DNA from: Halolamina litorea
Lineage (GTDB): Archaea > Halobacteriota > Halobacteria > Halobacteriales > Haloferacaceae
Length of the DNA: 64,000 nt
Assembly (NCBI RefSeq): GCF_026616205.1
Contig: NZ_JANHGR010000001.1
Location: 372,001-436,000, forward strand
Direction of reading: 5' to 3'
In this document: positions 13,485-17,878 of the stretch, one piece after another
Layout: each line of letters starts with the position of its first letter
Position numbering within the stretch: position 1 is the first letter of the stretch
Notes under the pieces: generated by a model
What the model saw: only the letters and a program-made list of their open reading frames with translations
Database searches by the model: none
What the model was told of the DNA's origin: nothing
Program-made: the position numbers and the translations under genes

Positions 13485-13688
13485 ATGAACACGACACTAC
13501 CGGCGCTGACACTCGCGTTGCTGCAGCTTCCGCTGCCGGAGGGGCAACTGGGACAGGCGCTGATCGCGGTCCTCGCGATCGGCGTCGTGATCCTCGTCGG
13601 GCGCGTGCTCCTGAGCATCGCGTGGAAGATCGTGCTGATCGCGTCGGTCGTGATCGGCCTGCTCTGGGTCGTGACGACGTTCCTCTAG
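13485..13688 (+). CDS. Small hypothetical membrane protein
   Basis: A 67-residue protein made almost entirely of two hydrophobic segments (about 24-40 and 46-66) after a Leu/Pro-rich N-terminus. The ATG at 13485 is preferred over one at 13458 because the TATA-like AGTTATG at 13454-13460 covers the earlier codon and lies about 27 bp upstream. Its stop codon TAG interlocks with the trpG stop on the other strand in the four bases CTAG. No function can be assigned. Confidence 0.6.
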   Translation: MNTTLPALTLALLQLPLPEGQLGQALIAVLAIGVVILVGRVLLSIAWKIVLIASVVIGLLWVVTTFL

Positions 13689-14335
13689 TCGAGGGCCGCC
13701 TCGAGGAAGTTCCGGATCACGTCGTGACCAACCGCGGTCAGCACCGACTCGGGGTGGAACTGCACACACTCGATGGGGTACTCGCGGTGGCGCACGCCCA
13801 TCACCAGTTCCTCGCTCCCCTCGTCATCGGGGTCGTCGACCGTCGTCGCCGTTACCTCGAAGCTATCCGGCACCTCAGTCGCCACCAACGAGTGGTAGCG
13901 CCCGGCTTGGAAGCCCTGTTCGAGGCCCGCGAAGACGCCCTCGCCGTCGTGGTCGATCGGGAACGCCTTGCCGTGGATCGGCTGGGGGGCGTGGCCGACC
14001 TGACCGTCGTACTCGAAGACCGCTGCCTCTAGCCCGAGACAGACCCCGAGTGTCGGCACCTCGGGACTGACCTCCCTGAGCATGTCCATCGTCAGCCCCA
14101 CGTCGCGCTCGTTTTTCGGGTGGCCCGGGCCGGGGCTGATGACGACGGCATCGGGGTCGATCTCGCGCACGTCGTCGAGCGAGGCGGTGTTTCGCAGCAC
14201 CTCGACCTCGGCGTCGGGCGCACCCTCGCCGACGTACTCGACGAGGTTGTAGGTGAACGAGTCGAAGTTATCGACGAACAGCACCGTCGGCGCGTCGTCG
14301 GCGGCGTCGCCGTCGGCGGCGTTCGGGAGGCTCAT
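13685..14335 (-). CDS. trpG: Anthranilate synthase component II (glutamine amidotransferase)
   Basis: Supplies ammonia from glutamine to TrpE for anthranilate formation. The 216-residue protein has the class I amidotransferase triad: Cys99 in LGVCLGLEA, and His194 and Glu196 in FHPESVLT, with the SPGPGHPKN loop near 68-75. The usual CLGHQ context after the nucleophile reads CLGLE here. About 15 extra residues precede the usual start. It overlaps trpE by 4 bp and is the last gene of trpDFEG. Confidence 0.94.
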   Translation of the reverse strand: MSLPNAADGDAADDAPTVLFVDNFDSFTYNLVEYVGEGAPDAEVEVLRNTASLDDVREIDPDAVVISPGPGHPKNERDVGLTMDMLREVSPEVPTLGVCLGLEAAVFEYDGQVGHAPQPIHGKAFPIDHDGEGVFAGLEQGFQAGRYHSLVATEVPDSFEVTATTVDDPDDEGSEELVMGVRHREYPIECVQFHPESVLTAVGHDVIRNFLEAALD

Positions 14336-15963
14336 TCGTCACCCCCTTCGATCCGCTCCAGGGCGTCCAACACGCCGCGGACCTTCTGTTCGGTCTCCTC
14401 GTACTCGCTTTCGGGGTCGCTGTCGGCGACGATGCCGGCGCCAGCCCGCACCCGGACGCGGTCGTGATCGTCGCCGTGCTCGACGGTCGCGGTCCGGATC
14501 ACGATGGCCGTATCGGCGTCGCCGGTCCACGAGAAGTAGCCGACGCCGCCGCCGTACACGCCGCGGGGGTTCACCTCCAGTTCGTCCAGCAGTTCCATCG
14601 CACGGACCTTCGGCGCGCCCGTGAGGGTGCCTGCGGGGAACGCCGCTCGGGTGGCGTCGAAGCCGTCGAAATCGGGGTGGAGCCGGCCGGTCACGGTCGA
14701 CTCGATGTGCTGGACGTGGCTGTACTTGAGGACGTTCATGAACTCCTCGACGCGCACCGAGCCCTGCCGGGACACCTGCCGCACGTCGTTTCGCGCGAGG
14801 TCGACCAGCATCGTGTGTTCGGCGCGCTCCTTGTCGTCGGCGAGCAGTTCGCCGGCGAGTCGGCGGTCCTCGACGGGGCTGGCGCCGCGGGCGCAGGTGC
14901 CCGCGATGGGGTTCGAGACGACGCGCTCGCCCGTCACCGAGACCAGCGTCTCGGGGCTGGCGCCAACGACCGAGCGGTCGCCGAAGGAGAGCAGGTACAT
15001 GTACGGCGAGGGGTTCACCTCGCGCAGCGACTCGTAGAGGCCGAGCGTGTCGAGGTCGCCGGTGATCTCGTGGCTGCGGGAGACGACCCCTTGGTACACG
15101 TCGCCGTCGAGGACGTGCTCCTGCATCTCGGCGACGGCGGCCTCGTAGTCGTCACGCGGGCCCGAAACGGCGGTATCGCGATCGAACCCACCAGTCTCGG
15201 GGGGTGTCGCCGCGGCGAGGTCGGCGGCGACGCCTTCGGCTTCGGCGGCGAGCCGGTCGTACACCGCGCCGGCGTCGTCCTCCTCGCCGACGATCGGCGT
15301 GAACACCAGTTCGACGGTCCCCTCGCGGTCGTCGAACGCGAGCGTCCGGGTCGTCAGCACGAACTGCGCGTCGGGCACAACGGGGTCCGGACGGTCGACG
15401 CCCACCTCCGCGAGATGGAGGTCGTAGACGGCGTCGTAGGCGAGGAAGCCGACGAGGCCGCCGTCGAGACGCTGTCGGTCGCCCGCCGCAAAGCCGACGC
15501 GCTCCACGTCCGGGAGCGCAAACCGGAGGCGGTCGAGCGTGTCCGGGTCGCTCAGTTCCTCGCCGCAGGCGCCGACCTCCGCGCCGGCCTCGCCGTCGAG
15601 TCCGTCGAGGAACCCCGCCGCGGGGCCGAACTCCTCGACTTCGGTGCGGTCCGGGTAGACCGAGACGAGGGCGTCGGGGTCGTAGCCAACGAAGGAGAAC
15701 CGGGCGTGCCGGTCGGCCTCGTCGTCGGTCGGCCCGTCGCTGTGGCCGCCGGCGGGAGCGAACGCCCCCGCGGGGTCACTGGAGGCGACCTTCTCGGCGC
15801 TCTCCAGCAGGAACGTGTGGTCGCTCCGGTCCGAGAGGGCGGCGTAGGCCGACAGCGGTTCGGCGTCGATGTCGAGCGTGGCGACGAGTCGGGCGACTGC
15901 CGGGTCGTCGGCGCCGTCGACCAGTTCCTCGAACTCGTTTCGGGAGCGGTCGAACCCCGGCAT
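14332..15963 (-). CDS. trpE: Anthranilate synthase component I
   Basis: Converts chorismate to anthranilate with TrpG. The 543 residues contain the chorismate-binding core in the last 280 residues: NPSPYMYLLSFG, GASPETLV, LVDLARNDV, FPAGTLTGAPKVRAMELLDELE and GYFSWTGDADTAIVIRT. The N-terminal LLES motif at 52-55 is the tryptophan feedback site of the family, so the enzyme is probably inhibited by Trp. The start is 1 bp from the trpF stop, and trpG overlaps at the other end. Confidence 0.95.
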   Translation of the reverse strand: MPGFDRSRNEFEELVDGADDPAVARLVATLDIDAEPLSAYAALSDRSDHTFLLESAEKVASSDPAGAFAPAGGHSDGPTDDEADRHARFSFVGYDPDALVSVYPDRTEVEEFGPAAGFLDGLDGEAGAEVGACGEELSDPDTLDRLRFALPDVERVGFAAGDRQRLDGGLVGFLAYDAVYDLHLAEVGVDRPDPVVPDAQFVLTTRTLAFDDREGTVELVFTPIVGEEDDAGAVYDRLAAEAEGVAADLAAATPPETGGFDRDTAVSGPRDDYEAAVAEMQEHVLDGDVYQGVVSRSHEITGDLDTLGLYESLREVNPSPYMYLLSFGDRSVVGASPETLVSVTGERVVSNPIAGTCARGASPVEDRRLAGELLADDKERAEHTMLVDLARNDVRQVSRQGSVRVEEFMNVLKYSHVQHIESTVTGRLHPDFDGFDATRAAFPAGTLTGAPKVRAMELLDELEVNPRGVYGGGVGYFSWTGDADTAIVIRTATVEHGDDHDRVRVRAGAGIVADSDPESEYEETEQKVRGVLDALERIEGGDE

Positions 15964-16619
15964 CAGGCCACCTCCGCGTGACTGGCCCGGGTGGCCTCCC
16001 GGACGAACGCACGCATCGCGTCGGCGTCCTTCCGGCCCGGTTCGTCCTCGCGTTCGACGCCGCTCGCCACGTCGACGGCGAAGGGTGCGACCGACTCGAC
16101 GGCCCCGGCGACGTTTCCGGGACCCAGGCCGCCGGCGAGCACGAGCGGCGTGTCCAGTTCCTCGCGCAGTTCGCGGGTGCGCTCCCAGTCGTGTGTCTCG
16201 CCGGTCCCCCCGGCGCCGGCCTCGCTCAGGGAGTCGACGAGCAGCGCGTCGGCGGCGCCGTCGAGGGCGCGGGCGCGTTCGGCGTCGTCGACGCCGAGGG
16301 CGACGATGGTGTCGGCCCCCGAACGGTCGCCGATATCCTCGACCGCGTCGGCGTCGAACTCGCCGTAGATTTGGATCGCGTCGGGATCGACGGTCTCGGC
16401 CACGGCCACGGCCTCCTCGACGCTCCCGGGGATGGTGACGGCGACCGTGGTGACGAACGGCGGGACCGTCGCCGCGAGGTCGCGGGCGCGTTCGGGGTCG
16501 ATCTCCCGGGGCGTGTCCACGTCCACGTCGGTGATGAACCCCAGCGCGTCGGCGCCGGCGTCGACGGCGGCCGTCACGTCAGCCTCGGTGCCGAGGCCAC
16601 AGAGCTTCGTGCGGACCAT
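15963..16619 (-). CDS. trpF: Phosphoribosylanthranilate isomerase
   Basis: Third step of tryptophan synthesis, an Amadori rearrangement in a TIM barrel. The 218-residue protein opens with VRTKLCGLGTEADV, carrying the catalytic-base cysteine, and continues with GADALGFI, PDAIQIYGEF, and the phosphate-binding VLAGGLGPGNVAGAV near the end. The start ATG overlaps the trpD stop by one base. The frame stays open far upstream through trpD in another register, which is an artefact of GC content. Confidence 0.94.
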   Translation of the reverse strand: MVRTKLCGLGTEADVTAAVDAGADALGFITDVDVDTPREIDPERARDLAATVPPFVTTVAVTIPGSVEEAVAVAETVDPDAIQIYGEFDADAVEDIGDRSGADTIVALGVDDAERARALDGAADALLVDSLSEAGAGGTGETHDWERTRELREELDTPLVLAGGLGPGNVAGAVESVAPFAVDVASGVEREDEPGRKDADAMRAFVREATRASHAEVA

Positions 16620-17629
16620 CACTCGGCCTCGGCCGTCCCGCCACAGAGCGCGGCGAACTTCTCGCCGGCGGCACCGCCGTCGATTGACTCGGCGGCCTTC
16701 TCGACGCCGGTTTCGAGGTCCTCGGCGAGCCCGGCGACGTAGATGGCGGCGCCGGCGTTGGCGAGGATCACGTCGCGCTTGGGCCCAGTGACGCGGCCAT
16801 CGACGATCCCACGGAGGTCTTCGGCGTTCTCCTCGGGGGTGCCGCCGGCGATCTCTTCGACGGGGGCCCTGTCGAGGCCGAGGTCCTCCGGCGTGATCGT
16901 GTACTCCGTCACGTCGTCGCCCTCTACCTCCGCGACGGTCGTGGGGCCGTGGAGCGCGATCTCGTCCATGCCGTCGCCGTGGACGACGAGGGCGTGCTCG
17001 ACGGGCATGTGTGTCAGTGCCTCGGCGATGAGCGGGACCAGTTCCTCGCTGTAGACGCCGAGGACCTGTGCGTCGGCGCCGGCGGGGTTGGTCAGCGGGC
17101 CGAGGACGTTGAAGACCGTCCGCATGCCCAGTTCCTTGCGCGGGCCGATGACGGCCTTCATCGCGGGGTGGAACACCGGCGCGAGCATGAAGCCGATCCC
17201 GTCGCGCTCGATGGCCGCCTCGACTGCAGGGGGTTCTGCCTCCACGTCGGCGCCGGCGACCTCCAGCACGTCGGCGCTCCCCGAGGAGGAGGAGACCGAG
17301 TAGTTGCCGTGCTTGGCGACGGCGACGCCGGCGCCGGCGGCGACGATGGCGCTGGTCGTCGAGACGTTGATCGTCGAGTAGTCGTCGCCGCCGGTACCGC
17401 AAGTGTCGACCAGCGGCTCGCGGTCGGGGCCGATCGTGCGGGCGGCGTCGCGCATCCCCTGTGCGAAGCCGGCGATCTCGGCTTCGGTCTCGCCTTTGGC
17501 TCGGAGCGCGGCCAGCAGCGCGCCGATCTGTGCCTCGGTTGCTTCCTCGAAGACGAGCGTCGCGGCCTCACGGGCCTGCTCGACGGTCAGGTCTTCGCCT
17601 TCGGTTACGCGTTCGATGAGTTCCTGCAT
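16619..17629 (-). CDS. trpD: Anthranilate phosphoribosyltransferase
   Basis: Second step of tryptophan synthesis, joining anthranilate to PRPP. The 336 residues contain the PRPP loop GTGGDDYSTINVSTTSA, the anthranilate-site [18 protein letters not shown], and GPLTNPAGA. The ATG at 17629 gives MQELIERVTEG, the normal family N-terminus; an in-frame codon at 17683 would put the operator and promoter inside the gene. It is the first gene of trpD-F-E-G on the minus strand. Confidence 0.95.
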   Translation of the reverse strand: MQELIERVTEGEDLTVEQAREAATLVFEEATEAQIGALLAALRAKGETEAEIAGFAQGMRDAARTIGPDREPLVDTCGTGGDDYSTINVSTTSAIVAAGAGVAVAKHGNYSVSSSSGSADVLEVAGADVEAEPPAVEAAIERDGIGFMLAPVFHPAMKAVIGPRKELGMRTVFNVLGPLTNPAGADAQVLGVYSEELVPLIAEALTHMPVEHALVVHGDGMDEIALHGPTTVAEVEGDDVTEYTITPEDLGLDRAPVEEIAGGTPEENAEDLRGIVDGRVTGPKRDVILANAGAAIYVAGLAEDLETGVEKAAESIDGGAAGEKFAALCGGTAEAE

Positions 17630-17646: not shown

Positions 17647-17682
17647 TGTACGAATCGGGTATACAGTGTACAACTTTGTACA
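17647..17682. promoter_or_regulatory. TGTACA palindrome, candidate TRP-box operator of trpDFEG
   Basis: TGTACAACTTTGTACA (17667-17682) is a perfect 16-bp palindrome holding two TGTACA hexamers 10 bp apart, and a third near-copy TGTACG (17647-17652) lies 20 bp from the first. On the minus strand it sits between the TATA-like GGCTTAACT (complement of 17686-17694) and the trpD ATG, over the expected transcription start. TGTACA is the TRP-box recognised by TrpY in Methanothermobacter, which represses trp genes when tryptophan is present. That an analogous regulator acts here is inference. Confidence 0.75.
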
Positions 17683-17685
17683 TTC

Positions 17686-17694
17686 AGTTAAGCC
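17686..17694 (-). promoter_or_regulatory. TATA-like element of the trp operon
   Basis: GGCTTAACT on the minus strand, 57-65 bp before the trpD ATG. It implies a transcript start near 17664 and therefore a leader of about 35 nt, longer than usual for this genome. Confidence 0.5.
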
Positions 17695-17803: not shown

Positions 17804-17878
17804 GGGTTGGTAGTCTAGTCCGGTTATGACACCTCCTTGACATGGAGGAGGCCGGCGGTTCAAATCCGCCCCAACCCA
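17804..17878 (+). tRNA. tRNA-Val (anticodon GAC)
   Basis: A complete 75-nt cloverleaf. The acceptor stem pairs GGGTTGG (17804-17810) with CCAACCC (17871-17877), and A17878 is the discriminator. The anticodon stem pairs CCTCC with GGAGG around the loop TTGACAT, with anticodon GAC at 17839-17841. The T arm is GGCGG-TTCAAAT-CCGCC. CCA is not encoded and no intron is present. Confidence 0.96.

Follow-up and report, generated by a model that had tools for sequence, protein, structure and literature searches.

In-phase TRP-box-like hexamers before haloarchaeal tryptophan genes: a probable operator for a TrpY-family repressor

The trpD promoter of the haloarchaeon Halolamina litorea carries TRP-box-like hexamers that belong to a lattice with a period of 10 bp, and this lattice is a shared feature of tryptophan gene promoters in haloarchaea. 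The strict register (phases 0, 10, 30, and 40) is present in 78 of 81 haloarchaeal trpD promoters, and related arrays before trpD and trpC are kept in all haloarchaeal families sampled. Judging from the sequences compared here, the lattice is probably where a relative of the regulator TrpY shuts the pathway off. TrpY-type control is a known kind of regulation, and it is the haloarchaeal operator that seems to be undescribed. The open-licence literature searched holds no description of a TrpY-type operator for haloarchaea, which is not proof of novelty but fits the first-pass annotation of this DNA, where no described operator of such a type was known for haloarchaeal trp genes.

The window analyzed is a stretch of 64,000 nucleotides of the H. 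litorea genome that includes the trpDFEG genes (Table 1). Reading toward trpD, a TATA-like CTTAA is followed by two TGTACA hexamers, then by CGTACA, and finally by the ATG of the gene. The boxes therefore occupy phases 0, 10, and 30 bp, and their starts lie 20 and 10 bp apart on the plus strand. The boxes at positions 0 and 10 together make up a perfect 16-bp palindrome, TGTACAACTTTGTACA (17667-17682), whereas position 20 reads ATACCC and position 40 of the array has been lost. Direct reading of the sequence bears out the coordinates, the palindrome, and the 10- and 20-bp spacings given in the first-pass annotation, as well as its placement of the boxes just downstream of a TATA-like box. The hexamers it listed are all there, but its description of one palindrome plus a third TGTACG box has to be replaced by a lattice that has a 10-bp period and as many as five positions, and of which the two-box pattern is one face.

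The closest relatives of the trpD gene in the window are those of other Halolamina, with 92% identity to the Halolamina salifodinae protein over 336 amino acids. An ATG at 17683, where a mechanically called open reading frame begins, lies on the first box and would place the array within the gene. We rejected it as the trpD start because the frame is open for 60 nt upstream in just 39 of 80 homologues. Directly upstream of trpD, and divergent from it, is a gene for tRNA-Val (GAC; 17804-17878, plus strand).

Table 1. Features of the trpD promoter and the trpDFEG genes in the H. litorea window
Feature	Position	Strand	Remarks
TATA-like box CTTAA of trpD	17688-17692	minus	putative function
TRP-box-like hexamer, lattice position 0	17677-17682	minus	TGTACA, sequence read directly
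TRP-box-like hexamer, lattice position 10	17667-17672	minus	TGTACA, sequence read directly
Lattice position 20, non-box ATACCC	17657-17662	minus	near expected transcription start; putative role
TRP-box-like hexamer, lattice position 30	17647-17652	minus	CGTACA (TGTACG on plus strand)
trpD, first gene of trpDFEG	16619-17629	minus	ATG at 17627-17629, conserved start
trpF	15963-16619	minus	kept in 34 trpD loci
trpE	14332-15963	minus
trpG, last gene of trpDFEG	13685-14335	minus

Alignment of trpD upstream regions shows that the palindrome is kept in relatives, as the first-pass interpretation would have it. The 80 other trpD loci share a common layout of TTAA or TTATA, about 5 nt, a box, N4, a second box, a non-box hexamer at position 20, a box at position 30, usually another at position 40, and then the ATG. 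With a tolerance of two mismatches, every one of the 78 anchored promoters retains the boxes at positions 0 and 10, 69 retain the one at position 30, and 53 the one at position 40. TGTACA is the sequence found at position 10 in 58 of the 78. Most relatives have a longer array than the window does, with boxes at 0, 10, 30, and 40. Nearly all homologues have the TTAA or TTATA element at an equal distance from the box at position 0. None of the 78 promoters has a box at position 20, yet the hexamer there is conserved as AACNCG or AAGACG, and may correspond to an initiator element at the transcription start. In the window, transcription is predicted to begin some 22-25 nt past CTTAA, near 17663-17666. 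Among de-duplicated trpD promoters, a spacing of 10 bp occurs in 19 of 22, with neighboring spacings near zero and shuffle means of at most 0.13.

The second half of the pathway carries an array of its own. All 30 haloarchaeal trpCBA loci that were read have boxes at positions 0, 10, 20, and 30 in the pattern CTTA, TGTACA, N4, a CGTCCG-like hexamer, N4, TGTACA, N4, and TGAACG, where the last box overlaps the start codon. The H. litorea copy is located at C2:194773-194808. In de-duplicated trpC promoters, the 20-bp spacing is found in 11 of 11, again with neighboring spacings near zero and shuffle means of at most 0.13. Two genomes of one genus (G148 and G128) have a trpB gene that stands apart from trpC, and this gene is preceded by its own in-phase array of four boxes. 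Such an array is hard to explain except by function, and it suggests that the operator was kept or regained when the operon was rearranged.

In each of the seven Halolamina genomes, a gene for a transporter of the sodium:neurotransmitter-symporter family also has boxes or similar hexamers in 10-bp register right in front of its ATG, and in H. litorea these read TGGACA-N4-TGTCCA-N4-TGTCCA (C3:183526-183551). The symporter array was not seen outside this genus. We tentatively regard this gene as a possible uptake gene for tryptophan or aromatic amino acids under the control of TrpY. Two further arrays in the same genome, at C2:494969-495004 before a gene for a luciferase-like monooxygenase and at C2:495745-495770 before an AIM24 gene, were treated as chance or species-specific occurrences, because the former has no counterpart in congeners, and no AIM24 start turned up in the loci retrieved from those species.

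A candidate reader of these sites is present in the genome, as a search for a TrpY-like regulator revealed. The single H. litorea match to NCBIfam model NF053754 ('TrpY family transcription regulator') is a 166-residue protein encoded at C2:50140-50628 on the minus strand of this genome (G000), with a score of 228 bits versus a cut-off of 180. One such protein occurs in each of 80 near-complete haloarchaeal genomes, and the haloarchaeal copies are 65-74% identical to that of H. litorea. The N-terminal half contains a conserved DRRVVD motif that resembles a segment of a DNA-reading helix, which makes this half the likely DNA-binding portion. The C-terminal half is ACT-like, although only weakly so, as its score of 25 bits falls short of the Pfam threshold of 27, and a sequence search of the PDB with TrpY returned no relative. 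Given the arrays before trp genes of haloarchaea and many methanogens, and the occurrence of TrpY in 80 of 80 haloarchaeal genomes, comparison gives good support to the original reading of the hexamers as TRP boxes, short of proof.

The trpY gene is unlinked to trp genes in H. litorea and in the haloarchaea sampled. No array was found upstream of trpY in 31 haloarchaeal promoters (H. litorea and 30 others), and therefore autoregulation of the Methanothermobacter type is absent or different in haloarchaea. In several haloarchaea (L266, L269, L272, L273, L275, L277, and L286), the gene immediately upstream of trpY encodes a protein with a C-terminus that, by eye, resembles HisB, hinting that trpY might be co-expressed with histidine synthesis.

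Lattices of this kind extend beyond haloarchaea, and the same holds for TrpY. Of 80 other genomes in the phylum, 76 carry one NF053754 protein above the cut-off, and a lattice is also found before the trp operons of many methanogens. In 40 Halobacteriota genomes from outside the haloarchaea, we retrieved the trp region and scored the 110 bp that precede the first trp gene located there. Pairs of boxes spaced by 10, 20, or 30 bp were present in 20 of the 40, compared with 0, 0, 0, 0, 0, 1, 1, and 2 for eight control sets of spacings in the same genomes. In the de-duplicated non-haloarchaeal set, spacings of 10 and 20 bp occur in 15 and 12 of 38, respectively, against shuffle means of at most 0.13. 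The spacing spectrum of the de-duplicated sets has peaks at 10, 20, and 30 bp, with almost nothing between.

These genomes also offer a view of how the lattice varies with the regulator. It is present in 20 of 30 genomes with a DRR-type TrpY (the typing of a few rests on relatives of the same family), in none of seven whose motif reads DRKVV or DRNVV, and in none of the three that have no detectable TrpY (G176, G185, and G194). The association of lattice with TrpY type has a Fisher p value of 0.0004, which ignores kinship; the absences are confined to a few clades, and the number of independent events is therefore small, perhaps three. The altered motifs belong to an Archaeoglobi-like family (f21) and to family f24, in which trpY is divergent from trpC, and the trp promoters of both are without a TGTACA lattice. 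Ten DRR-type genomes show no lattice within the scored 110 bp, though in at least some of them the trp gene that was located sits inside a longer operon. In G185, which has neither TrpY nor TRP boxes, a 214-residue protein encoded divergently from trpE (L258 7036-7680, plus strand) combines a DUF7523-like N-terminus with an ACT-like C-terminus, and perhaps this protein is a replacement regulator.

It could be argued that the lattice is a real trp operator bound by some other protein, for example one of the Lrp/AsnC family or another winged-helix regulator, and that TrpY is merely universal. TrpY is so nearly universal in the phylum that its presence carries little information, half-sites spaced by 10 bp suit many winged-helix dimers, and an Lrp-type gene lies near trpD in seven loci. 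However, no regulator gene recurs beside trpD or trpC in haloarchaea, and genomes without TrpY, or with a changed DRRVVD motif, are the very ones in which the lattice is missing. This covariation is the best sequence evidence, though not proof, that TrpY rather than another protein reads the boxes. Furthermore, in three related non-haloarchaeal genomes of one family (L255, L330, and L331), trpY and the trp operon are direct neighbors that point away from each other; no TGTACA lattice was found there. The TrpY protein of Methanothermobacter (MtTrpY) is itself a known trp repressor, which acts in a tryptophan-dependent manner by binding TRP boxes between trpY and trpE (PMC6737238). We therefore consider a different binding protein unlikely.

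We favor, with good but incomplete confidence, a model in which the lattice is the operator for a tryptophan-sensing TrpY-family repressor that is encoded elsewhere and that, when bound by tryptophan, would assemble on the DNA and block initiation. Plentiful tryptophan would bind the ACT-like half of TrpY, after which TrpY dimers might line up next to one another along one DNA face, where a half-site is available at 10-bp intervals. Such an assembly would reach from just past the TATA box as far as the start codon. It might keep RNA polymerase and TFB from initiating on trpDFEG and trpCBA. In Halolamina, the symporter-family gene would be blocked likewise. The distribution of boxes along one face, from the TATA box to or over the start codon, fits a cooperative assembly that could shut out the initiation complex.

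The same protein on the same sites could instead act mainly as an activator, or could answer another signal such as anthranilate, chorismate, or general amino-acid status. The ACT match of TrpY is weak, and Tar (TK0271), which recognizes TGGACA-N8-TGTCCA at aromatic amino-acid operons of Thermococcus kodakarensis, is an activator (PMC6737238). Tar sites, however, lie upstream of BRE/TATA, whereas the haloarchaeal boxes follow the TATA box and extend as far as the start codon or even over it. Because this is a place for repression, we favor that mode and regard either variant as very unlikely.

The exact pair TGTACA-N4-TGTACA is effectively a marker for trpD. Under a first-order Markov model built from the nucleotide and dinucleotide frequencies of the window, it is expected about 5e-5 times per 64 kb and about 0.002 times per genome. 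The search for further pairs suggested in the first-pass annotation recovered only the one at the trpD promoter in the 3.02-Mb genome. Other sites in this genome with up to two mismatches are mostly within coding sequence or spaced by N5, and were rejected. When 118 genomes of the order were searched blind, 17 exact pairs came up in 16 of them, compared with matches in 4 genomes for a reversed control pattern, and 13 of the 16 pairs with a fetched locus lie within about 55 bp upstream of trpD. Single TGTACA hexamers are slightly over-represented in the window (5 versus 1.85 expected), but a chance palindrome or a general promoter feature has almost no probability left, because the lattice is conserved and no other spacing is enriched.

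The haloarchaeal lattice resembles the TrpY/TRP box system of Methanothermobacter thermautotrophicus in pathway, in its location at trp promoters, in the presence of a TrpY-family protein, and in its hexamer, since the consensus there is reportedly also TGTACA. Repression of the trp operon by MtTrpY reportedly requires both tryptophan and additional assembly on DNA. Several differences are evident. In Methanothermobacter, where the two promoters overlap, trpY is directly divergent from the trp operon (PMC6737238), an arrangement seen here in the one non-haloarchaeal family noted above and not in haloarchaea, where trpY is unlinked and has no array of its own. Haloarchaeal trp genes are also split into trpDFEG and trpCBA with a lattice for each. 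Moreover, there are up to four haloarchaeal boxes in strict 10-bp phase, with position 20 skipped at trpD and the last trpC box on the start codon. As with Tar, the hexamers are palindromic and would serve aromatic amino-acid operons, but the spacing is N4 rather than N8. Bacterial TrpR and its trp operator are analogous in function only, as end-product repression of trp genes; TrpR differs from TrpY in both fold and site, and no homology is claimed.

The TrpY of T. kodakarensis is 42% identical to MtTrpY and does not regulate trp (PMC6737238), and therefore membership in the family does not prove function. The haloarchaeal homologues had not yet been examined, and their function could not be estimated (PMC6737238). 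Very few archaeal regulators have been matched to an operator, and haloarchaeal TrpY now gains a testable candidate regulon consisting of trpDFEG and trpCBA, to which some genera add a transporter or a trpB that stands alone. The exact bases to alter are now defined for Haloferax volcanii, which encodes a TrpY-family protein and is genetically easy. A tight tryptophan-repressible promoter would usefully complement the tryptophan-inducible tna promoter.

On a broader scale, these data suggest that TrpY has long exerted end-product control over tryptophan synthesis in Halobacteriota. We give about even chances to the more ambitious proposal that the lattice is an ancient, phylum-wide operator code, in which TrpY polymerizes on sites one helical turn apart up to the start codon and in which Archaeoglobi-like lineages re-coded DRRVVD to DRKVV or DRNVV together with the operator. 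These lineages offer a natural experiment in the joint evolution of a regulator and its operator.
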